Virus record (IMG/VR): IMGVR_UViG_3300034190_000290
Coordinates: 1-21,778 of that record
Strand: one strand, 5' to 3'
Length of the DNA stretch: 21,778 nucleotides
Origin: a virus
Under the pieces are notes generated by a model, which worked only from the letters and a program-made list of their open reading frames with translations, made no database searches and was not told the origin of the DNA. The first letter of the stretch is position 1; each line of letters starts with the position of its first letter. Of the stretch, positions 1 to 21,778 are shown piece by piece. The translations under genes were made by a program, and so were the position numbers.

Positions 1-153
1 TGGATTTTGGGTAGTATATCTAAGGAAGACTTTTACAAGAAAGCTACCCTATATAGAAAAGGGGACATCGATAAAGACAACGGTTTTGTATTCAAAGCTG
101 ATTGTTACAACCTAAGAATAAATGAATTGAGTCCTATCAATGAAAGAATTTAA
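1..153 (+). CDS. C-terminal end of an unidentified phage protein (5' truncated)
   Basis: The frame starting at base 1 is open until TAA at 151-153 and encodes the last 50 residues of a protein whose start lies left of the window. The visible part is mixed charged and aromatic (GSISKEDFYKKATLYRKGD, then FVFKADCYNLRINEL) and looks like a soluble globular domain end, not a membrane or fibrous protein. I do not recognise the family. It overlaps the following + strand gene by 14 bases, so the two are probably co-transcribed and translationally coupled. Because they run opposite to the virion genes, they probably end an early or middle (replication/metabolism) operon. Codon-like continuity and the tight overlap support it being real. 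Its function is unknown. Confidence 0.6.
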   Translation, partial: WILGSISKEDFYKKATLYRKGDIDKDNGFVFKADCYNLRINELSPINERI

Positions 154-370
154 AAGTAAAGTAAAAGCGAAGTTGTTTTCGTTAGAAGCCTATCTAAACA
201 AGGATGGCAACGTAGAGATGAACTACGAAGCAGTGAAGCCAGAAGATTTAGAAAGAGAACTTAACACTGGGTTTCCCATGTATGATGGAACGAGTCAAGT
301 TGCATCACTGCTTAGATTTATGAGAAAGATGGGAGACGAGATAATGGATGGTTCAAGGAACTACATCTAA
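140..370 (+). CDS. Small hypothetical protein, last gene of the + strand operon
   Basis: This 76-residue protein starts with ATG inside the end of the preceding gene (14-base overlap) and ends with TAA at 368-370. The first 15 residues are basic (KEFKSKVKAKLF), followed by an acidic helical-looking middle (AVKPEDLERELNTG) and an amphipathic stretch (SLLRFMRKMGDEIMDG). There is no membrane segment, signal peptide or recognised motif. No strong Shine-Dalgarno is visible, so translation probably depends on coupling to the upstream gene. Its stop overlaps the stop of the oppositely oriented SET-domain gene by four bases, making it the convergence point of the two operons. Its function is unknown. 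Confidence 0.6.
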   Translation: MKEFKSKVKAKLFSLEAYLNKDGNVEMNYEAVKPEDLERELNTGFPMYDGTSQVASLLRFMRKMGDEIMDGSRNYI

Positions 371-395
371 GTGTGGTAATTTAGTAGTAGTTCTT
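356..395. other. Imperfect hairpin over the convergent stop codons (possible bidirectional terminator)
   Basis: Bases 356-364 pair with 387-395 (nine pairs, one G-U). After a 2x2 mismatch (365-366 / 385-386), bases 367-371 pair with 380-384 (five pairs, last one G-U), leaving an eight-base loop at 372-379. Both stop codons (+ strand 368-370, - strand 369-367) lie in the inner stem. Neither side is followed by a T-rich tract, so it is not a classical intrinsic terminator. A role in stopping the converging polymerases or protecting 3' ends is inference. Confidence 0.45.
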
Positions 396-684
396 CGCCT
401 TCAGTTATTAGTCTTTTGGTAATAATATTAAACACAAGATGATCATCCCAGTCTTGTGTACAATCTAAAAAACAATTTGGTTTATCGGAGTGATTGATGA
501 AGCCACCAAGAGGTGTTCTTATATAAGTAAGGATCATTGGCACTTTGATATGTGTAGCACCTATGTCTGTGCCTTTCTTTATATCTTGAGCCGCAAAGAT
601 TCCGTGACCATGCACAGAACTTTCTTTTATACAAACTTCTTCAGGTAAAGGATTATAATAGAATCTGTTATATTTTATCTTCAC
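367..684 (-). CDS. Minimal SET-domain protein-lysine methyltransferase
   Basis: This 105-residue protein is essentially a bare SET domain, the fold that transfers methyl groups from S-adenosylmethionine to lysine side chains. The family signatures appear in order: SSVHGHGIFAA at 22-32 (the first AdoMet-binding GxG segment), INHSDKPN at 63-70 (the NHS..PN pseudoknot motif), and GEELLLNY at 96-103, with Tyr103 in the position of the catalytic tyrosine. There is no post-SET cysteine cluster and no other domain. Its size is close to that of the 119-residue chlorella-virus vSET. Translation probably starts at GTG 684-682, which overlaps the upstream TAG by one base (TAGTG). It is the last gene of the virion operon, so it is likely expressed late. 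The substrate (virion protein or host protein) is unknown. The fold assignment is confident; activity is inferred. Confidence 0.88.
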   Translation of the reverse strand: MKIKYNRFYYNPLPEEVCIKESSVHGHGIFAAQDIKKGTDIGATHIKVPMILTYIRTPLGGFINHSDKPNCFLDCTQDWDDHLVFNIITKRLITEGEELLLNYHT

Positions 685-953
685 TATTTGTTTCTTAACA
701 TAGCAAAGTCTTCTTTGTCAATCCTATTATTTTTATTTTTATCAAGTTTAACTTGCCCACCAGTTAAATAACCCATACCAAATTTCTTTTGATCTGTCAT
801 CATGCCCATAGCATCTGCAGTTTTACGTGTCATTGCGTTTTGCTGTTGTCTATTTTGTTGTGCTAGTCCACCCATTTGCATCGGTTTACGTGGACTTGCC
901 ATGCCACCCCCATACATTTTAGTTGGTCTTTGTCCATTATTGTACATTTTCAT
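684..953 (-). CDS. Met/Gly-rich small protein with one EF-hand-like calcium-binding loop
   Basis: This 89-residue protein has a low-complexity, basic, methionine- and glycine-rich N-terminal half (KMYGGGMASPRKPMQMGG at 12-29) and a Gln/Asn-rich middle. It ends with one EF-hand-type loop at residues 71-82: Asp71, Asn73, Asn75, Ile78, Asp79 and Asp82, followed by Phe83. Position 12 of the loop is Asp instead of the usual Glu. Short MYGGGM-type proteins ending in such a loop look familiar from marine phage genomes, but I know of no defined function. The start ATG at 953 has a good Shine-Dalgarno (AAGGAGA, seven bases upstream) inside the end of the 1593-residue gene, a 17-base overlap. A second ATG two codons on is possible. 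A calcium-sensitive virion or host-interaction role is inference. Confidence 0.75.
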   Translation of the reverse strand: MKMYNNGQRPTKMYGGGMASPRKPMQMGGLAQQNRQQQNAMTRKTADAMGMMTDQKKFGMGYLTGGQVKLDKNKNNRIDKEDFAMLRNK

Positions 954-3900
954 TGACTGTCTCCTTATTTAAAAATCTATCTGGTACAACTGCTTCAATA
1001 ACTTTTGTTTGTAAACTTTTTTTAGAAATGTCTTGCATCTGGGATTCTATATTTTTTCTTTTCTTTTTTATTTCTTTAGAAAATTTATTTAACTCTTCCG
1101 TTCTAGGATCATCGTCTTGATCTGCTTGTGCTTGATTTCTTGCTAGTATACTTATAAAAGCTTTTTCTAATGCTTGTCTGTCTTTAAAGTTAGGTGGCTC
1201 ACCTTCTTCTAACATTTTAACAACAATTCTTCCTACTTCTGGATTATTCATCATTTCTTCAAACATTCCATACTTACCTTTTCTGATAGCGTGTATAGCT
1301 GCTTCAGTTCCTAAAAATTGTGTTCCAATTACTCCTCTTTGCCAAGCATAAGCTCTACTAACCCAAGATGCCATTGATAATGATCTAGGTATACCTTGTA
1401 TAGTAAATGGTATTTTAGACACTTGCTCTCCTGTCATGTACCCTGCGATAGTAATATAGTTATCAAATACCTCGTCTGTACCATCTACAGAGCCTCTCTT
1501 AACAAGTTCTCTAAAAGATTTTTCCCAATCTGTTCCCTTACCAAGTAAGTTCATCATGGTTTGACCTTTTATTAAATCGTTTGTTGATATGTCCATTTGA
1601 CCATCTATAGGACTTATTTCTACTTTTGGTAAACTTGTGTTATCAGCAACTTTAGCACTGTTTTCAACAAACTCTAATGCTCTTCCTGCTATAGCTCTAT
1701 CATACTCTTTCATTAAACCTTCGTAGTTTCTAGCCTGATTACTATTTAAATCGGCTATGCTACTAACTCCTAATTGATCTAATAGTAATTTTGAATAAGT
1801 ATTTCTTGTTTGATCTAAAACTTCTATACCTTGTTTACCTAATTTTATTTGACTGTGAATATAATCAGGCGTAAATTGTCTTAAAAGATTATCTTTTGCT
1901 TCTTTTAAACCTTTAAATACACCTGTCTGTCTTTGTGCTAATTCATTTTTTATCGTAGTAATTTCGTTTTTAATTTTTGTTTGAATTTGCTTAGCTTTTT
2001 TGTTAAATTCAGAAGAGTATGCGTAAAGTTGTTGAACGTCAAGAGCTTCCTCAACCTCTGTTTTATTAACTAATTGTTGTCCAGTGGATGTTTTTAGTAA
2101 ATCTAAATTGTTAAGAAATGTTTGAAATTTTTCAGTTCCTTTAAGTTTAGGTAAGTCCCCCGGTCTTATAACATCTCTACCTCTTAATTCATTCAAAAGT
2201 AATTGTCCTGCATCACTATTTAAAAGTAATTGTTTACCTGCACGTTGAATTATTTTTTGAGCTAATTTTAAACCAGTAGAATTTTTTGAACCATCGAAAC
2301 TCCAACGTGCTACACCCCCACCTTGAGATATATTAGTTCCACCAAATACTTGAGCTATGTCACTCACTACTTTATCTGCTTCATCTTGAGTTAAATTTTT
2401 AGAGCCTAATCTATTTATTATGTCTTGAACCCAAACAGTAGGATCTTTAGAAAGTATAACAGCACCACTAGGATCTTTACCTATTATCTTTCCCCAGTCT
2501 TTTCCGTATCCACTTTTGTAACGTGATGCCCAATCTTGCCAAGCACCTTTAGCAAGTCTCCAGTCTTCAAGAACCTCACCACCTACAAAGGCACTTTCTT
2601 TTGCATTAGGATTGAAAAAGTTTAAAGAAAATCCTGTTACTTCATCTTCTGCTAAATCAACCCAATATTCATATAAGCTATAATTCTCTTTACCTTGAAG
2701 TGATCCCATTTTTTGATAAGCTTTTGATCCCATAGTTTGAGCAACTATTTTCCAATCATCAAATCCTATAGGAAGTTTTACGTCTCTTCCTTCATCGTAT
2801 AACTCTTTCCAAATTTGAAAATTACTTGCATCAGGATTTTCATCTTTAACTATTTTAATTGCTTCTTGTAAGTCTGGGGATAATAATCTTACGTTTTCAT
2901 CAGCTAAAAACTTTCCCGCCGCATCATCAAATAATTTTTCAAACTTATTTGGCAACACACCCGGTTTGATATTTGCAATGTTCTTTGCTCCTCTAGAAAC
3001 CTCCGAAACAAACAATTCGCCTTCTTCAAAAAAATCTTGAAAGTCAGGTGCATCATAGTTTTTTATTAATCCGTAAAAATCTGTTGCATCCATAAATACA
3101 GGATTACTACTGTTTCTTCCATAAGTATTTTTTAGATATATAAATTTACCGTCAGCATTGTTTTTCAAAGTTTGATTAATTTTTGAATAACCTTGATACA
3201 TTGAGTTACTTGATACAGGAACATTTGAAGTTATGCTATCTACCGTATCTAAATTTTTACGTATTTGTAAATCAAACTTATCTAACTTTTCGTTTGCTCT
3301 TTTTACTGCTTCTTCAGCAGTGTAACCTGCAAATACATCTTTTGATATATAATGGTTACTTAATATTTCTAATTTTGATGCGTAGTTATTAAGAACAGTG
3401 GGTTTAAAATCATCTGGATTGGCTTTTAAACCATCTACCATGTCAGATAAATCGTTTTCTAATTTAGTTGCAAACTGATCAGCCTTCAACTCATACTCAC
3501 GTAGATGCTTTGCATAGCTATCATACATGGCGATGTAGTTATCTATTATTTGCTTTGATGCTTCATCAGCTTGCATGTCGGGATGCAATCTTGCTTTACG
3601 TAGTTGATTTATACCTGTAGATAATTCATTATATAGTGATACTTTATCTCTCTGATTCAACAAAAACTTTTGAAATCCATCACTAAAATCCCTTACTTCA
3701 CTATGTTTTATACTGTCTAAAACTTGATCCCCTGCGTTTCTTAAACCAATTAATCCAACCAATTTATACACAACATCGTTGAATGCTTCTGGATTAGACA
3801 CAAGAGGTTTGCCGTCTACCATTAATCCACTTATTTTTTCTCCTATAGCTCTATGTCCGTCTATAGAAGCAAATATATCCTCTTGTATTTTTGGATCTGC

Positions 3901-5718
3901 TAAAGATAGCCATTTGTATACGTCTTTAGCTTTTCCTTTGTACTTAGGATTATCAAAGTCTTTTAAAAACATGTAACCTAAATGATCTTTTAAGCTATTT
4001 GTAAATCCCTTTACTCCATTGATACCTGTTTCAGTAGCGATAGTACCCCCTATTCCTCCTAAAAGCATCATCAAAAAATTAGGTTGTATGTTTTCTGGAT
4101 CAACACTGTCCATTTGATAATAATGATTTACACTAGCTATGCCAAATGTTACGCCTAATTCATCTTTAAATAAACTTCTAAAAGATTCTGGAACAAGAGA
4201 TTTCAAAGTCTCTGCTTCCATATTTCTTTCAATTCTTGCAACTACTTTAGCTTGAGCATTTAAAGCTTGTTGAGTTATTTGTCCCTTTTGAAATTGACTT
4301 GATAGGTTAGCATACTTTTGATTCGCAGCATCTAATCTTTGTTTTAAAAAATTTACTCTTACTCTTTGTTTTGGATCAAATATACCTTTAGCTTCTTGAG
4401 CCATCTTCATAGAAAACATAGTCATGTTTTTTCTGAATCCATTTAAAAATCCTATGTTACCATCTTGCCAATATCTCTCAAATATGTCAGCGTCAGTAAG
4501 ACCTTTTTTGTTTGCATTTTTTAATGCACCTTCAAATGTTTTAGATTGAAATGTATTCTTTGCCCAGTTTCTAAACGCACCACTTTTTATTTGACCCATA
4601 GTTAAACCTAAACCACCTGTGATGGCATAGGTAGTCAATCCTATGAACCCTTCTCTTTTTAAAGTAGTTGCAAAGTCAGGACTGTAAGCTAATATAGCCG
4701 TTGCATTATCTACAGATAATACACCGTCTGTTTTTTCGTTTATGATATCAGCAGCAAATTTAGTCTTACTGAACATATCTCCAGTTGTATCTATCTTAGG
4801 AGCAATAAAAGATCCTAAAGGAGTAGTTTTTAAATCTTCTTTAAACGTATTATTAACTTCAATTGTAGCATCTGCAACTGCTTCTCCCACACCCTTTAGA
4901 ACGTAAGGAACTAATTTAAGTAAGTCAGTAACTCCATGCTTGGTTCTGAATTGTTCCATTATACCACTCTGTTCAGCGTACATAAATTCAGCTATCTTTA
5001 ACTCATCTAACCCCATATTTTTAAGAAGTTTAAAGTAACGTTTTGTTTCTTCTTCGGGACTTCTAGTTTCAAAATCTATGGGTGTCATATCAAAATCAAA
5101 CCCAACATCAGTTACGGCAGGTTGAACATCAATGCCTTGTTTACTTCTTTCTTCTATGTCTAGTAGTGATTTTGTTTGCTCAAAAGTAGGTATGGTGTAT
5201 TTATTACCTTGTTTATCTAGCACAGTAAAAGCATAACTGTTATCTCCTGCTAAATTTAAAGGATTATTAAATATGTATTTTAGTCTCTCATTTATTAAAG
5301 CATCTTGTTCTTCTTTAGTTACTACAGAGCTAACACCAGTGTCTCTCTCAGTGGGGAGTGCAGGGAAAAGATCAATAACATTCTTTTTTAAATCCTCTTC
5401 TCCAAGAGGTATTTCTCTTCCTAATTTTGCTGTTAACAAAGGATCTACTAACGTTCCTTGTCTTGCTCTATTTAAAATAGATTTCTCACTAACTATACCT
5501 GTATCAGCACCTCTTTTTAAGTAATCAAGCATAGGTTGATTAAATTCTAAGTATTTTGCATTGAGAATAGAGTTTCTAAAGTTTTGGTCATTGAACAAAT
5601 CTTTAGTTATTGTAGCTGTTCTGTAATCATCTACTTGACTTAGAAACTTAAAATCTTCAAATGTTGTAGGCTTTGGGTTTCTACCCATTTGTCCACGTGT
5701 ATTAACTGCTAATTCCAT
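937..5718 (-). CDS. Giant virion protein (1593 aa), probable internal/DNA-ejection protein
   Basis: At 1593 residues this is by far the largest gene in the window. Its size and position among late structural genes match the large internal core proteins of podoviruses, which are ejected into the cell with the DNA (T7 gp16 is the comparator). Visible features are a charged, mostly helical body; Gly-rich hydrophobic stretches near residues 350-370 and 545-567 (the latter LLGGIGGTIA) that might insert into membrane; coiled-coil-like helices about 452-515; a segment near 1445-1465 (SMASWVSRAYAWQRGVIG) resembling the C-terminal region of other giant phage proteins; and a Lys-rich tail about 1535-1575. 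I see no lytic transglycosylase or protease motif. ATG 5718 follows the upstream stop by two bases with no clear Shine-Dalgarno, suggesting coupled translation. The virion role is inferred. Confidence 0.75.
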   Translation of the reverse strand: MELAVNTRGQMGRNPKPTTFEDFKFLSQVDDYRTATITKDLFNDQNFRNSILNAKYLEFNQPMLDYLKRGADTGIVSEKSILNRARQGTLVDPLLTAKLGREIPLGEEDLKKNVIDLFPALPTERDTGVSSVVTKEEQDALINERLKYIFNNPLNLAGDNSYAFTVLDKQGNKYTIPTFEQTKSLLDIEERSKQGIDVQPAVTDVGFDFDMTPIDFETRSPEEETKRYFKLLKNMGLDELKIAEFMYAEQSGIMEQFRTKHGVTDLLKLVPYVLKGVGEAVADATIEVNNTFKEDLKTTPLGSFIAPKIDTTGDMFSKTKFAADIINEKTDGVLSVDNATAILAYSPDFATTLKREGFIGLTTYAITGGLGLTMGQIKSGAFRNWAKNTFQSKTFEGALKNANKKGLTDADIFERYWQDGNIGFLNGFRKNMTMFSMKMAQEAKGIFDPKQRVRVNFLKQRLDAANQKYANLSSQFQKGQITQQALNAQAKVVARIERNMEAETLKSLVPESFRSLFKDELGVTFGIASVNHYYQMDSVDPENIQPNFLMMLLGGIGGTIATETGINGVKGFTNSLKDHLGYMFLKDFDNPKYKGKAKDVYKWLSLADPKIQEDIFASIDGHRAIGEKISGLMVDGKPLVSNPEAFNDVVYKLVGLIGLRNAGDQVLDSIKHSEVRDFSDGFQKFLLNQRDKVSLYNELSTGINQLRKARLHPDMQADEASKQIIDNYIAMYDSYAKHLREYELKADQFATKLENDLSDMVDGLKANPDDFKPTVLNNYASKLEILSNHYISKDVFAGYTAEEAVKRANEKLDKFDLQIRKNLDTVDSITSNVPVSSNSMYQGYSKINQTLKNNADGKFIYLKNTYGRNSSNPVFMDATDFYGLIKNYDAPDFQDFFEEGELFVSEVSRGAKNIANIKPGVLPNKFEKLFDDAAGKFLADENVRLLSPDLQEAIKIVKDENPDASNFQIWKELYDEGRDVKLPIGFDDWKIVAQTMGSKAYQKMGSLQGKENYSLYEYWVDLAEDEVTGFSLNFFNPNAKESAFVGGEVLEDWRLAKGAWQDWASRYKSGYGKDWGKIIGKDPSGAVILSKDPTVWVQDIINRLGSKNLTQDEADKVVSDIAQVFGGTNISQGGGVARWSFDGSKNSTGLKLAQKIIQRAGKQLLLNSDAGQLLLNELRGRDVIRPGDLPKLKGTEKFQTFLNNLDLLKTSTGQQLVNKTEVEEALDVQQLYAYSSEFNKKAKQIQTKIKNEITTIKNELAQRQTGVFKGLKEAKDNLLRQFTPDYIHSQIKLGKQGIEVLDQTRNTYSKLLLDQLGVSSIADLNSNQARNYEGLMKEYDRAIAGRALEFVENSAKVADNTSLPKVEISPIDGQMDISTNDLIKGQTMMNLLGKGTDWEKSFRELVKRGSVDGTDEVFDNYITIAGYMTGEQVSKIPFTIQGIPRSLSMASWVSRAYAWQRGVIGTQFLGTEAAIHAIRKGKYGMFEEMMNNPEVGRIVVKMLEEGEPPNFKDRQALEKAFISILARNQAQADQDDDPRTEELNKFSKEIKKKRKNIESQMQDISKKSLQTKVIEAVVPDRFLNKETVNENVQ

Positions 5719-10576: not shown

Positions 10577-10604
10577 TTTATATTTCCAATAGCGTTTATG
10601 CTAA
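10577..10604 (-). promoter_or_regulatory. Weak candidate promoter ahead of the holin-like gene
   Basis: On the - strand TTAGCA (10604-10599) and TATAAA (10582-10577) are 16 bases apart, with four and five of six matches to the sigma70 boxes. The -35 half overlaps the end of the previous gene. In such AT-rich DNA this can arise by chance, and the 40-base gap is the only other support. Confidence 0.2.
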
Positions 10605-11048
10605 GTCTCCCACCATCATGTTAGCAACATAATCTTCATCTGCAACATTTGCTGAACTAGCACCTGCAAAAACTTGAACAATTCTACAAGTGCTTGTGGC
10701 TACAGAACCATCTTCTTTAGGTTGAGCAGACTTTACAAAAGTTGTTACATCTGATGCGTGTGCTGTTACACCACTTATTGCATATCCTTTAGCTGTAGCC
10801 ATGTTATTAGTATACGCATAAGAAGTATCACCCGTTCCATTATCTGTAATAGAGCCATGATTAAAAGAATCAAAAACAGCAGGGTTTCCTGCTGAAGCAG
10901 TATCACCATAAGTAATCCATGTTTTACACAATCCCTGTTGTAAGTTCGTTGTAAGACCAGTTGAACCACTAGCTGTTACCCCTGCTTCACCATGTACAGC
11001 AGTAGAGCCACTTGTCATTAATCTTGCTAAATCAGATGCTTTACTCAT
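10596..11048 (-). CDS. GDLA-family tail-fibre tip module A (last of cassette 2)
   Basis: This 150-residue protein is a member of the array of seven paralogues in this window. After a short variable N-terminus it has LTTNLQQGLCKTWITYGD, then the core FDSFNHGSITDNGTGDTS, the helical-looking NNMATAKGYA, a variable beta region, and the terminal GDLA shared by all copies. It is the longest of the seven, with an insert in the loop before the DSFN core and an acidic extension just before GDLA (ANVADEDYVANMM). The fold is probably a small beta-rich adhesin; this is inferred from similarity to tail-fibre C-terminal regions. ATG 11048 overlaps the previous TGA (ATGA). It has no GDLA gene after it, although the terminal DNA motif is intact. 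Confidence 0.72.
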   Translation of the reverse strand: MSKASDLARLMTSGSTAVHGEAGVTASGSTGLTTNLQQGLCKTWITYGDTASAGNPAVFDSFNHGSITDNGTGDTSYAYTNNMATAKGYAISGVTAHASDVTTFVKSAQPKEDGSVATSTCRIVQVFAGASSANVADEDYVANMMVGDLA

Positions 11049-11422
11049 GCTAAGTCTCCGTGTATTGTAACTGAGTTTACTGTGGCATCTAATGCTGCAC
11101 CAGTATCAGCTTTATATGTCTGAATACGAAGAACACCTGCTGCTCTTGATGTTATTTCCCATACTTCTGTTCCTGCTGTTTCGCCACATACACCACTTGG
11201 AGCATAATCAGCATTACCCATATCATTCGCTATTGTAATATCTGTTAAGCCAACTCCTTGATCTGTAATACTCGTTACATTGTAAGAATCTCTAGTAGCA
11301 ATAGTTCCTGTTCCATTAAAATTAATCCAAACTTTAGCAGTACCACCAAACACCACACTCGTAGCAACACTATTATTACCACTTGCATCTTTTAATGTAT
11401 TTACTCTTAATTCACTTGCCAT
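11045..11422 (-). CDS. GDLA-family tail-fibre tip module B
   Basis: At 125 residues this is the shortest paralogue. The N-terminus is MASELRVNTLKDASGNNSVA, followed by KVWINFNGTGTIATRDSYNV, then SITDQGVGLTDITIANDMGN and ADYAPSG. A variable region with strand-like segments (EVWEITSRA, VLRIQTYKAD) precedes HGDLA. It lacks the TTNLQQGLAK segment seen in modules A, C and F, going straight from FGGTAK to VWINF, so it looks like an independently evolved or recombined copy. ATG 11422 overlaps the preceding TAA by one base (TAATG). Presumably it is a tail-tip adhesin or fibre decoration; no receptor can be inferred. Confidence 0.72.
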   Translation of the reverse strand: MASELRVNTLKDASGNNSVATSVVFGGTAKVWINFNGTGTIATRDSYNVTSITDQGVGLTDITIANDMGNADYAPSGVCGETAGTEVWEITSRAAGVLRIQTYKADTGAALDATVNSVTIHGDLA

Positions 11423-11811
11423 TATGCTAAGTCTCCATTCACTTCCCCAAAATTAGTGTGGTCACTTGCACCACCACTTGACGAAACAAAAATTAAAATT
11501 TTAAAAGATGTCGTTGCTCTTGATGCAATTGTTGCAGTACGAGCATTTGAATCTCCTGCTGTTGCAAGGAACATTGTTGATGCTGAAGATAAAGCGTTTG
11601 TTATATTATATGTGTAATCTCCAGTTCCATTATCTACACCAGAAGACACATTTAAAGCATTAGTAGGTGAAGCTGCATTACTACCTAGTAAATGAACTTT
11701 TGCTAACCCTTGTTGCAGATTAGTTGTTGTACTACCACCTTCACCTGTAACAAGTATAGAACCTGCTGTGGTTACACCTGTTAATTTATCTACTTTAAGT
11801 TCACTTGCCAT
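11422..11811 (-). CDS. GDLA-family tail-fibre tip module C
   Basis: The protein is 129 residues. Order of elements: MASELKVDKLTGVTTAGSIL, VTGEGGSTTTNLQQGLAK, VHLLGSNAASP, then a divergent core NALNVSSGVDNGTGDYTYNI and TNALSSASTMFLA. A Ser/Thr-rich region with FKILIFVSSSGG precedes NGDLA. Here the usual Asp-Ser-Phe-Asn of the core reads Asn-Ala-Leu-Asn. The N-terminus closely matches module F (TLTGTTSAGSIVVTGEGG), which lies in the other cassette, suggesting that these two share a more recent ancestor or have exchanged ends. ATG 11811 overlaps the preceding stop (TAATG) and is served by the GGAGA encoded in the end of module D. Confidence 0.72.
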   Translation of the reverse strand: MASELKVDKLTGVTTAGSILVTGEGGSTTTNLQQGLAKVHLLGSNAASPTNALNVSSGVDNGTGDYTYNITNALSSASTMFLATAGDSNARTATIASRATTSFKILIFVSSSGGASDHTNFGEVNGDLA

Positions 11812-12239
11812 TATGCTAAATCTCCATGTATTATTAGGTGTCCAAAAGGAGAAACATCTATATCAGATGTACCTGTATTTAAGTGACGAAGTGTGCCTGT
11901 TGTTGATGTTGTTTTAACATTATCTCCATTGTAAAATAAGTCAGTACAGTTACTACCAATTAAACCTGCATATGCAAAATTAGCTGAACTAAAAACATTT
12001 GTAACTGTAAAGTTAGCTCTTCCAGTATTTTCATCTGACAAAGATGAAACATTAAAACTGTCATCTAAAGCATTATCCCCCATGTCATATTGAACCCATG
12101 CTTTTGCTAGTCCTTGCACAGTTGTTGTAGTAGCACTACCACCTTCAGCCACAGTAACGGATGTATTACCTATCTTAACATTCGTGCCACCTGACCCTGC
12201 TTTATCTACAATGGTATCTACATTTAATTGACTTGTCAT
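11811..12239 (-). CDS. GDLA-family tail-fibre tip module D (first of cassette 2)
   Basis: The protein is 142 residues from ATG 12239 (MTSQLNVDTIVDKAG). I prefer this start over an in-frame TTG four codons upstream because ATG overlaps the previous stop as ATGA and has GGAG upstream (TTGGAGTATCGTATG). Elements: ATTTTVQGLAKAWVQYDMG, the core LDDSFNVSSLSDENTGRANF, TNVFSSANFAYAG, a variable region with Cys, then FGHLIIHGDLA. Sequence between the conserved ends is strongly divergent from the other modules. It directly follows the 152-residue leader protein, matching the arrangement leader-then-GDLA gene seen at 15325. Confidence 0.72.
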   Translation of the reverse strand: MTSQLNVDTIVDKAGSGGTNVKIGNTSVTVAEGGSATTTTVQGLAKAWVQYDMGDNALDDSFNVSSLSDENTGRANFTVTNVFSSANFAYAGLIGSNCTDLFYNGDNVKTTSTTGTLRHLNTGTSDIDVSPFGHLIIHGDLA

Positions 12240-12694
12240 ACGATACTCCAATAACCATTAACAGTAACTGTCGCTGATTGTGTTATAGGACCTGCTGATA
12301 CACCATTCTCATCACTGTCTATTGTAATGTCTGCACTAATAGTCTGTCCATTTAATCTGATAATACTGTTGTTACCTTTGAATGGATAACGTGTATCTGA
12401 TTCAGTCTTTGTGTAACTATCTGCTACTGTAAAGGCATCATACACAATCATTTCTACTATATCATTTAAACTTGCACCAGTTACTAATACGACACTTGTA
12501 CCACTTGTAGCTGTATAATCTGTACCTGCTTTGAGGAGAACACCATTTTGGTACACATCCATATACAAGCTATCTGAGTAGCTAAGTGTTAGCGAATTAG
12601 CATCTGACCCACTAAAAGTTGTTTGAGAAGCAGTAGCTTGATATACAAATCTACTTCTTACTCCTTGATTGGGTGACCTTCCTATATATGCCAT
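12236..12694 (-). CDS. Tail-fibre leader protein of cassette 2 (152 aa)
   Basis: The 152-residue protein has the phage fibre N-terminal signature MAYIGRSPNQG, then a beta domain with LYMDVYQNGVLLKAGTDYT and VVLVTGASLNDIVEMIVYD, a linker AFTVADSYTKTESDTRYPF (the YTK.E.DTRY type common in tail fibres), and a C-terminal repeat IRLNGQTISADITI with GPITQSATVTVNGYWSIV. The C-terminal part is homologous to the C-terminus of the 149-residue protein at 15325, and both precede a run of GDLA modules. It probably attaches the adhesin modules to the tail or forms a short fibre subunit. ATG 12694 follows the upstream stop by nine bases. Its TGA overlaps the next ATG. Confidence 0.72.
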   Translation of the reverse strand: MAYIGRSPNQGVRSRFVYQATASQTTFSGSDANSLTLSYSDSLYMDVYQNGVLLKAGTDYTATSGTSVVLVTGASLNDIVEMIVYDAFTVADSYTKTESDTRYPFKGNNSIIRLNGQTISADITIDSDENGVSAGPITQSATVTVNGYWSIV

Positions 12695-13669: not shown

Positions 13670-14155
13670 TTATGCTGCCTTATCAGTGGCTATTATATTC
13701 TCATCAATCTTCCAAGCGTTTCGCCACTCTCTTGTACTTGGAAGCTGATTCTTTTTACAAATAACTAATCTTGGTTTATTAGCTTTTTGATATTCTCTCC
13801 ACACTCTTTGTGGTATGTCTTTCATAATTAAATATTCTATTGCTTGTTCTTCTGTCATTGCTTCAACAGGTTTAGTGTTGTGTAGCAAATAACCTCTTGT
13901 ATGTTTCTTGAAGTCAGGCTTTGCTTCATCTTCTGCTAATGCCCAATAGACTTCTACTGGTGGTAATATGCCACCTTGTAAGGCACAAGCCATCCAATTA
14001 GGGTCAGGTACTGTTATCTTAGAACATTCTTCAGGTGCATCAGGGTCTTCCCATACAATGCGATAGTCTGATTGTTTACCTTCTAAGTTTTCTTTTGCCC
14101 AACACAATCTATCCCATAAATGTGTACCTTGAAATTCTGGTGTTTTTATTGTCAT
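13670..14155 (-). CDS. Tail-fibre-linked hypothetical/chaperone-like protein (161 aa)
   Basis: I place the start at ATG 14155 (MTIKTPEFQGTHLWDRLCWA), because it overlaps the previous TGA (ATGA) and sits behind GGAGACCTAGC; an in-frame ATG five codons upstream lacks this. The protein (161 residues) is soluble and Trp-rich, with PDPNWMACALQGGILPPVEV at about 51-70, YLLHNTKPVEAMTEEQAIEY, LIMKDIPQRVWREY and LPSTREWRNAWKIDE near the end. The last motif resembles the R.FR.AW element at the start of the 125-residue chaperone-like protein encoded next. The two may work together, or represent a split version of a longer fibre chaperone. There is no membrane or catalytic motif. Confidence 0.6.
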   Translation of the reverse strand: MTIKTPEFQGTHLWDRLCWAKENLEGKQSDYRIVWEDPDAPEECSKITVPDPNWMACALQGGILPPVEVYWALAEDEAKPDFKKHTRGYLLHNTKPVEAMTEEQAIEYLIMKDIPQRVWREYQKANKPRLVICKKNQLPSTREWRNAWKIDENIIATDKAA

Positions 14156-14553
14156 GCTAGGTCTCCACAAATTTGCATTTCTGTATGTGTTATATTACTT
14201 TCTGTAGCACTTCCATCATTCATGCTCATCATTCTTACTTCTACTGCACTCGCTGTTTTGCTAGGACTTTGAACCATACCTCTAGGATTTAATCCGTCAA
14301 CTGTAACTGCAACTGCCGAAGAGTACAAAGCATTACTAAAAGCGTTTGTAAAATGTATTCCAAAATCTCCACTACCATCATCATCTACAGAACTACAATT
14401 AAAACTATCGTCTTGAACTGCATCCATGCCTAATGTAAACCAAACTTTGTTTACACCATTAAAAATGTAACTCGTATCAATAGACTTTTCTGTGCCAGTA
14501 TTAACTGAATCAGATGTTGTTAATGTATCAAATGCTATTGTTCCGTTTGCCAT
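14152..14553 (-). CDS. GDLA-family tail-fibre tip module E (last of cassette 1)
   Basis: The protein is 133 residues from ATG 14553 (MANGTIAFDTLTTSDSVNTG). An upstream TTG at 14580 would extend it, but ATG 14553 has the standard GGAGACTTAGCATAATG junction. Elements: NKVWFTLGMDAVQDDSFNCS, SVDDDGSGDFGIHFTNAFSN, LYSSAV, a basic/Ser variable region (SPSKTASAVEVRMMSMNDGS), then CGDLA. Its N-terminus is unlike modules C and F and lacks the NLQQGLAK block. Its stop overlaps the start of the 161-residue chaperone-like gene, so the cassette is coupled to that gene and not to another GDLA copy. Confidence 0.72.
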   Translation of the reverse strand: MANGTIAFDTLTTSDSVNTGTEKSIDTSYIFNGVNKVWFTLGMDAVQDDSFNCSSVDDDGSGDFGIHFTNAFSNALYSSAVAVTVDGLNPRGMVQSPSKTASAVEVRMMSMNDGSATESNITHTEMQICGDLA

Positions 14554-14950
14554 TATGCTAAGTCTCCATTTACTCCACAAGTTAGAGGGTCTAAATCTAA
14601 AGCACTATTACTTCCATCACGACATCTACACCTTAAAGTAGTAGTAGTAACTCCATTAGAGCCAATATTGGATTGACTAGCACCATTAAATAAAAACGCA
14701 TAGTCATCACTAGACATAGCATTTGTAAATGTAGTAGTATATTCCCCTGTTCCGTGGTCTGTAGTAGCTGTCATGTTAAAAGAATCATTCATTCCAATAG
14801 TTCCTGTACCATCTAATTGATACCACGCTTTTGCCAATCCTTGTTGTAAGTTTGTTGTGTTAGAACCACCCTCTCCTGTAACAACAATGCTACCTGCTGA
14901 AGTTGTACCTGTTAAGGTGTTTGTCTTTAAGGTACTCATGCTAGGTCTCC
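14153..14950 (-). repeat. Dual-use GDLA-codon / Shine-Dalgarno motif, cassette 1
   Basis: Copies of GGAGACYTAGCAT on the - strand lie at 14950-14937, 14567-14551 and 14166-14153. Two have C and one T at the variable Leu codon position (CTA or TTA). Each leads straight into the next ATG with an ATGA or TAATG overlap. The 14166-14153 copy launches the chaperone-like gene, so the motif is not restricted to starting GDLA paralogues. Confidence 0.85.
14553..14939 (-). CDS. GDLA-family tail-fibre tip module F
   Basis: The protein is 128 residues: MSTLKTNTLTGTTSAGSIVV, TGEGGSNTTNLQQGLAKAWY, QLDGTGTIGMNDSFNMTATT, DHGTGEYTTTFTNAMSSDDY, a variable loop with a Cys pair (TLRCRCRDGS), then CGVNGDLA. It contains every conserved block of the family and is the best reference copy. 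It shares its N-terminal 40 residues with module C in the other cassette more closely than with its immediate neighbours. ATG 14939 overlaps the previous TGA. Presumed function is a tail-tip beta domain that contacts the host surface or caps a fibre; the evidence is context and resemblance to marine phage fibre C-termini. Confidence 0.73.
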   Translation of the reverse strand: MSTLKTNTLTGTTSAGSIVVTGEGGSNTTNLQQGLAKAWYQLDGTGTIGMNDSFNMTATTDHGTGEYTTTFTNAMSSDDYAFLFNGASQSNIGSNGVTTTTLRCRCRDGSNSALDLDPLTCGVNGDLA

Positions 14951-15328
14951 CATTATAGCCATAGTAGCTTGAACAGTATCTACTAAAGCACTACTGCTGT
15001 TATGTGATGATAAACTTAATTCACCTGTCGTTTGGTCATCAGCTCCAGAACCTGCGTGTTGCACAGCAAGCACCCAACCTGCTTCTGTTACTGCATCTCT
15101 GTGTGTACCTGCTGTTAATGGTGAATAATTAACATTTGCCATATTGTTTGTATAATCTAAGGTAAATATTCCTGTTTTATCATCTGTTAGAGAACTTATA
15201 TTTAAACTGTCTCTTGCTGTTGTTGATGACATTGTAAAATGACAAAAAACTTTAGCTGCGTGTTGATTAGTAAGCGTAACTGCACCACCACCTGTACTTT
15301 GTACTGTATCTACTTTTATTGTACTCAC
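14936..15328 (-). CDS. GDLA-family tail-fibre tip module G (first of cassette 1)
   Basis: The protein is 130 residues, starting with GTG 15328-15326 (GTGA overlap with the upstream TGA), preceded by GGAAGG about 11 bases upstream. Elements: MSTIKVDTVQSTGGGAVTLT, HAAKVFCHFTMSSTTARDSL, NISSLTDDKTGIFTLDYTNN, MANVNYSPL, a variable region WVLAVQHAGSGADDQTTG, and MGDLA. The Trp normally found in the KVW / KAW strand is Phe here (KVFCHF), and the core reads Asp-Ser-Leu-Asn instead of Asp-Ser-Phe-Asn. It directly follows the 149-residue leader protein, mirroring module D after the 152-residue leader. Confidence 0.72.
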   Translation of the reverse strand: MSTIKVDTVQSTGGGAVTLTNQHAAKVFCHFTMSSTTARDSLNISSLTDDKTGIFTLDYTNNMANVNYSPLTAGTHRDAVTEAGWVLAVQHAGSGADDQTTGELSLSSHNSSSALVDTVQATMAIMGDLA

Positions 15329-20336: not shown

Positions 20337-20624
20337 CTAACCACTCTTACGTGCTTTCTTTAATTGTTCTTTTGCCTTTTTTGCTATTGCTACGACTTCT
20401 GTCTTACCCATCACTTTTGCTCTTTGCTCCATGACCGTAAGAATTTGTATCTTTCTCGCATACGGTTTCTTAATTTTTTTAACCTTTGCAACCGTTGCTC
20501 TGGCATCTGACGGTGTAGCAAACTTGATACTAACCGTGTCTTTAGGGTTCTCATCCGTATATAAACGTCTACCAGATTTTTTTGGCTTTTTTCCAGTTCC
20601 AACTTTAGGATCTTTTTTTGTCAC
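20337..20624 (-). CDS. Conserved small basic phage protein with SGRRLYTDENPKDT motif (95 aa)
   Basis: The protein is 95 residues and very basic (Lys-rich). It carries DPKVGTGKKPKKSGRRLYTD and ENPKDTVSIKFATPSDARAT at residues 5-44, followed by a Lys-rich helical region ending KKARKSG. The motif SGRRLYTDENPKDTV looks to me like a strongly conserved segment found in small proteins of many marine phages, but no function is established that I can cite. Basic charge suggests nucleic-acid contact or a structural role (inference). It starts with GTG 20624-20622, which overlaps the previous TGA (GTGA). The frame is not shared with the weaker 63-residue shadow in the same stretch. Confidence 0.7.
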   Translation of the reverse strand: MTKKDPKVGTGKKPKKSGRRLYTDENPKDTVSIKFATPSDARATVAKVKKIKKPYARKIQILTVMEQRAKVMGKTEVVAIAKKAKEQLKKARKSG

Positions 20625-21491: not shown

Positions 21492-21591
21492 TATCACTAG
21501 AAGAAACTCTATCATTGTGATGGCAATCGCATGAGCATTCTTCGCAATCGCATTCGTAACATTCGCAAGTCTCGCATCGTTTCTTAGTCAA
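21421..21591 (-). CDS. Cysteine-cluster small protein, likely metal-binding (56 aa)
   Basis: Starting at TTG 21591 (GGAG six bases upstream; the in-frame ATG at 21603 lacks a good Shine-Dalgarno), the ORF encodes MTKKRCETCECYECDCEECS, then CDCHH. There are eight Cys between residues 6 and 23, spaced C-x2-C-x-C-x2-C-x-C-x2-C-x-C-x-C, followed by His-His, enough to coordinate zinc or an iron-sulfur-type cluster. The C-terminal half is polar, may be disordered, and overlaps the 50-residue gene. It overlaps the lysozyme stop by eight bases. The DNA encoding the Cys cluster is a degenerate short repeat, so it may be variable in length. Function is unknown. Confidence 0.5.
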   Translation of the reverse strand: MTKKRCETCECYECDCEECSCDCHHNDRVSSSDNDRHSGDKSNAKVSQYRQMPIFC

Positions 21592-21778
21592 CCCACTCTC
21601 CATGTTCCATAGTCTTTGATAAATTATCTGCACGTTTACCTACCTGTTTTGCCCAACGGGAGTTAAGCATCTCGGCTGCAGCCCATTCAAAGTCCTGTCT
21701 TTCTATAGCTTCCCACATCTTTTTAAACTTCATAAGACGTGGTATACCTAAATTAAATCCCATATCTACAAGACACAT
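21584..21778 (-). CDS. Phage lysozyme (GH24 family), C-terminal fragment
   Basis: The visible 64 residues are the C-terminal part of a T4-type endolysin, which cuts the glycan strands of peptidoglycan at the end of infection. They match the family pattern: CLVDMGFNLGIPRLMKFKKM, WEAIERQDFEWAAAEMLNSR, WAKQVGKRADNLSKTMEHGE (LVDM.FNLG, then S.WAKQVG.RA). The gene continues past the right edge. The Met at the edge aligns with an internal position, so it is not the true start, and the N-terminal catalytic Glu-Asp-Thr region is not visible. It stands before the membrane protein gene, as in many lysis cassettes. Confidence 0.85.
   Translation of the reverse strand: MCLVDMGFNLGIPRLMKFKKMWEAIERQDFEWAAAEMLNSRWAKQVGKRADNLSKTMEHGEWVD

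Follow-up and report, generated by a model that had tools for sequence, protein, structure and literature searches.

A minimal SET-domain gene carried as a one-gene cassette by marine tailed phages

What does a SET domain do in a phage whose host is probably a marine bacterium? SET methyltransferases are best known from histone marking in plants and animals, and lysine is the usual methyl acceptor in the superfamily; to our knowledge, eukaryotic histones are not expected in a marine bacterial host. The gene in question lies in a viral stretch of 21,778 nt (the window) that represents part of an HMO-2011-like phage, its tail protein and that of Puniceispirillum phage HMO-2011 being 57% identical; it is this backbone that points to the host. 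The features discussed are listed in Table 1.

Table 1. Features of the window, with positions counted from its first nucleotide.
Feature	Position	Strand	Size	Remarks
SET-domain methyltransferase gene	367..684	(-)	105 aa	GTG start; ORF call, Pfam, PHROG, AlphaFold, Foldseek
SET motif residues				GxG 26-28, H45, RTPLGG 56-61, NH 64-65, E98, Tyr103
Protein upstream of SET	684..953	(-)	89 aa	KMYGGGM; Lys/Arg-rich; weak EF-hand-like C-terminus
Convergent gene	140..370	(+)	76 aa	Stop overlaps SET stop
Putative internal virion protein	937..5718	(-)	1593 aa	Named by position; Lys-rich C-terminus
Basic protein	20337..20624	(-)	95 aa	Earlier-proposed substrate; frequent in comparable phages whether or not SET is there
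Seven small late proteins	10596-12251 and 14152-15328	(-)	about 125-150 aa	GDLA at every C-terminus; apparent tail-fibre paralogues
Cut-off ORF	21584-21778	(-)		64% identical to part of L408:9449-9940; lysozyme-like by sequence appearance only

The ORF is real, its coordinates are exact, and it encodes a complete minimal SET domain, as a sequence-only reading of this DNA had proposed. The GTG start is supported by the relatives, most of which have ATG at the equivalent site in the alignment. The protein matches the Pfam SET family (PF00856; E=1.6e-11, 44.9 bits against a curated cut-off of 22.4 bits) and PHROG 28741 (4.4e-21), which is labelled “unknown function”. All three motifs named in the earlier reading are present, as G26-H-G28, N64-H65-S..P-N70-C71 and G-E-E98-LLLN-Y103. 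A phmmer search of PDB sequences with the window protein matched MLL/KMT2 SET domains, and vSET weakly; a 43-row profile lifts the vSET match to 1.1e-8 (hmmsearch). In NCBIfam the best match is LegAS4, which is also the best bacterial match in the PDB.

Structure prediction, which had been suggested as a check, returned a SET fold. The AlphaFold model (43-row alignment) has a mean pLDDT of 87.9 and a pTM of 0.78, and Foldseek matched it to SET structures in the PDB with a probability of 1.00 (MLL3, 1.5e-6; P. falciparum SET, 2e-6; vSET, 2.5e-6; LegAS4, 3.5e-5). Judging from this fold match, the chain would thread the SET pseudoknot and form an AdoMet pocket. In BFVD, the model matched several UniProt “SET domain containing protein” entries of uncultured Caudovirales. 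Phage SET proteins of this kind had been deposited already, in PHROG 28741, which is the family of the window SET, and in such UniProt entries. They carry automatic names only, and our literature search found no study of their function, context or mobility.

The most similar well-described protein is vSET (PBCV-1 A612L, a viral H3K27 methyltransferase), which is likewise free-standing, minimal and virus-encoded; the window SET is in fact slightly smaller (105 versus 119 aa), in keeping with the size comparison made earlier. However, vSET belongs to a virus of a histone-bearing eukaryote, its matched core is 13 residues longer, and it extends beyond the catalytic Tyr, whereas the window SET and its clade stop two residues beyond Tyr103 and so have no post-SET segment. 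The window SET is also set apart by H45 and its RTPLGG loop, which mark a separate subfamily. Because the post-SET segment is absent and the protein has its own invariant residues (H45 and R56-T57-P58), a histone-tail-like substrate is not to be assumed. Chlamydia NUE and Legionella LegAS4/RomA share the SET fold and motifs, but these are secreted proteins with eukaryotic chromatin targets (for NUE, a secreted effector, see PMC2904774), whereas the window SET comes from a phage of marine bacteria and no secretion context was seen around it.

We use “RTPLGG SET” as a handle for the subfamily, and nothing more. A scan of IMG/VR with the single sequence found 209 relatives, and an alignment-based scan found at least 590 related stretches. 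A few isolate phages have a member (including Kolga, P-SSM7 and P-RSM6), and marine bacterial chromosomes carry others. Eleven residues (G28, G42, H45, R56, T57, P58, G60, G61, N64, E98 and Y103) are invariant in 86/86 dereplicated phage and bacterial members, with H65 conserved in 85 and G26 in 84; this set left out eight related rows whose loops are of the RTSIGG, RTAIGS or RLSLGG-like kind, so that the RTPLGG loop is not strictly universal. Where dS was computable, dN/dS between the window SET and its relatives was 0.03-0.20, which indicates purifying selection. The window SET falls in a phage-only clade of 33 rows (support 97), and the SAR11 copies form a clade of their own (support 99), with an insertion before the last motif, for which reason a recent capture of the phage gene from SAR11 chromosomes was rejected. 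With few columns and some long branches in the tree, its deeper branching is unsure. This large subfamily has apparently not been described before: our literature search gave no paper on its SET proteins in phages or Pelagibacter, nor a demonstration of methyl transfer by any member.

Within the window, SET is the last gene of a late operon on the minus strand and is convergent with a gene on the plus strand. The earlier description of it as the final late gene is correct here, but holds for this HMO-2011-like backbone alone. SETs that are 76-88% identical to it are found at the end of a late operon, between a UvrD-like helicase gene and DUF3310-PolA, between a Pam3 Gp34-like gene and a primase gene, and in a capsid/tail cluster. 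More distant relatives lie between 2OG-Fe oxygenase and glycosyltransferase genes, in small-ORF arrays with glutaredoxin, or beside small basic proteins. The phages with 76-88% identical SETs mostly have little else in common with the window phage, and contigs whose SET is 86-87% identical showed no other shared protein over the stretch compared.

Sites lacking the gene give the same picture. Contig G542 and the SET-bearing contig L014 have helicases that are 99% identical, and yet G542 has no SET; compared with L007, its flanks are 91-93% identical in DNA on both sides, and what sets the two apart at the site is the SET ORF, which L007 has exactly where two genes of G542 share an ATGA overlap. 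The window's own junction is empty in contig G461 (tail protein 91% identical to the window's), where a homologue of the 89-aa gene directly abuts a convergent 73-aa gene, the homologue of the 76-aa gene. In HMO-2011 itself, SET is missing from the matching junction, where the MazG/ribonucleotide-reductase side meets the large late protein. From the empty sites in G542 and G461, SET is a clean single-ORF accessory cassette, and it is portable across unrelated backbones of many marine tailed phages. Small ORFs of another kind, resembling CxxC...CxxxC zinc fingers (L014:354-608 and L014:2381-2614), also vary in presence between near-identical phages, and one of the two directly adjoins SET.

The gene upstream of SET in the window overlaps it (TAGTG, stop of the 89-aa gene with start of SET), but persists in this backbone irrespective of SET and is outside the cassette. 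Its product is one of a set of KMYGGGM-type proteins of 89-113 aa, with homologues in L001-L022, in which EF-hand-like acidic loops occur near the C-terminus (DKNKNNRIDKEDF, DLDGDGN and DFDKDGN). The 1593-aa protein that precedes it in the operon had no convincing Pfam or PHROG match. It also gave no blastp match with the protein at the same position in L407 (L407:9830-14632), a relative with tail proteins 86-91% identical, and so this large protein has either diverged fast or been replaced.

A virion substrate had been inferred from the position of SET as the last gene of this operon, and a minor share of our own confidence, well short of half, remains with the view that the lysines methylated by SET are those of virion proteins or of phage DNA-binding proteins (such as the internal virion protein or the 95-aa protein) late in infection. 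Besides the window arrangement, this is suggested by one phage group (L060-L080) in which the 95-aa basic gene immediately precedes SET, and by another in which a 2OG-Fe oxygenase and glycosyltransferases flank it, giving the look of a gene set for protein modification. The inference from position is not supported, however, since relatives 78-88% identical are located in replication modules of unrelated phages and the junction in G461 is empty; moreover, the 89-aa neighbour remains where SET is absent, and we found nothing in favour of the Lys-rich tail of the 1593-aa protein as a substrate.

The 95-aa basic gene requires closer comparison. In whole records, it accompanies SET in 27/42 cases (8/10 for records over 50 kb), but only 3/31 records with the basic gene have SET, and backbone-matched records without SET carry it about as often (8/15; 3/4 over 50 kb), all of these samples being small and related. 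The controls were 15 backbone-seeded SET-less records; one further record has a SET cut by the contig end, and lacks the basic gene. The gene occurred within 10 kb of SET in 1/80 cases, although limited flanks hid some. A dedicated pairing of the two proteins was therefore rejected, the nested pattern (27/42 versus 3/31) being voided by the similar rate in the controls. Given that contexts vary, empty sites exist and the basic gene is equally common without SET, there is no support for a dedicated virion substrate among the neighbours. The basic protein, for which there was no Pfam match above cut-off, is itself related to at least 595 IMG/VR stretches, versus 8 of 50,697 phage records.

The bacterial members lie in quite different surroundings. 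A scan of bacterial genomes found 28 loci; some of the “bacterial” contigs (e.g., L085, L087 and L088) resemble phage contigs binned into MAGs, whereas the copies in Porticoccaceae, Flavobacteriaceae and SAR11 are surrounded by genes that are clearly chromosomal. By the appearance of the neighbouring sequences, the Porticoccaceae copies sit after fabA-fabB, and those of Flavobacteriaceae between argC and proC, inside an arginine operon. Strong matches occur in about 28 of 197 SAR11-family genomes, the proteins being mostly 142-146 aa, and 14 of the 15 SAR11 loci examined are beside amino-acid or methylated-osmolyte genes. Two arrangements recur: AptA-AlaDH-SET, followed mostly by an FAD-GcvT protein (dimethylglycine/sarcosine-dehydrogenase-like), and Rieske GbcA-like (glycine-betaine-monooxygenase-like)-SET-DddP-like, at times accompanied by a BHMT-like gene. 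The names are those of NCBIfam matches, several of which fall below the curated cut-off. Loci L287-L300 are SAR11 chromosomal members with such conserved alanine dehydrogenase or osmolyte-demethylation neighbourhoods.

These neighbourhoods bring in a further reading, in which the acceptor of SET is a small molecule (an amino acid, amine or sulfur compound) and its methylation changes the methyl or osmolyte metabolism of the host. There is a precedent in BurB, a bacterial single-domain SET protein that methylates free methionine to S-methylmethionine and contacts AdoMet via His72 and His93 (PMC12542666). The spacing of these two residues, as taken from the text of that paper and unaligned, is similar to that of H45 and H65, which is a lead only; H45 and R56-T57 are invariant, and the SAR11 and arginine-operon settings fit a substrate of this type. 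On the other hand, BurB is 172 aa long, had no sequence match found with the window SET and is not among the PDB matches listed; the Porticoccaceae copies are in another setting; and the SAR11 clade, with its insertion, stands apart from the phage clade. We regard the small-molecule reading as unlikely overall. Its stronger form, in which RTPLGG SET is a small-molecule methyltransferase of marine bacteria, tied to the metabolism of methylated osmolytes in SAR11, that became a mobile phage cassette redirecting host methyl and osmolyte pools and is no protein-lysine methyltransferase at all, seems to us quite doubtful. A catalytically dead SET fold serving as a binding or regulatory protein, which the absent post-SET segment and the few conserved aromatics near the site besides Tyr103 and F62 (inferred from the alignment) might suggest, is very improbable, because the expected AdoMet-binding and catalytic residues are invariant or nearly so in phages and bacteria.

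We therefore favour, with about even confidence, an active AdoMet-dependent SET methyltransferase on a portable cassette, most likely methylating a lysine of a host protein or of a protein common to many infections, rather than a partner encoded by a neighbouring gene. AdoMet-dependent methyl transfer is likely in view of the conserved motifs. As the neighbouring genes are not conserved from one context to the next, the simplest common factor would be a target shared by many infected hosts, and a portable single-gene cassette makes a host-cell target more probable than a tie to adjoining virus-particle genes. The subfamily traits H45 and the RTPLGG loop, which are not features of the matched lysine methyltransferases, count against this explanation, as do the missing post-SET segment and the existence of SET enzymes that act on small molecules, such as BurB. 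In the mechanism we propose, many marine tailed phages would carry the ORF as a single-gene accessory cassette and express it together with whichever operon had received it; the enzyme would then transfer methyl from AdoMet, likely to lysine, on a host protein or one common to many infections, presumably to the benefit of the phage.

The RTPLGG SET proteins, apparently unstudied so far, are small and suited to a direct enzyme test, and the empty-site pairs provide natural comparisons with and without the gene. If active, they would constitute a methylation tool, for protein or possibly metabolite, that is spread across hundreds of ocean-phage contigs and has relatives on the chromosomes of marine bacteria.
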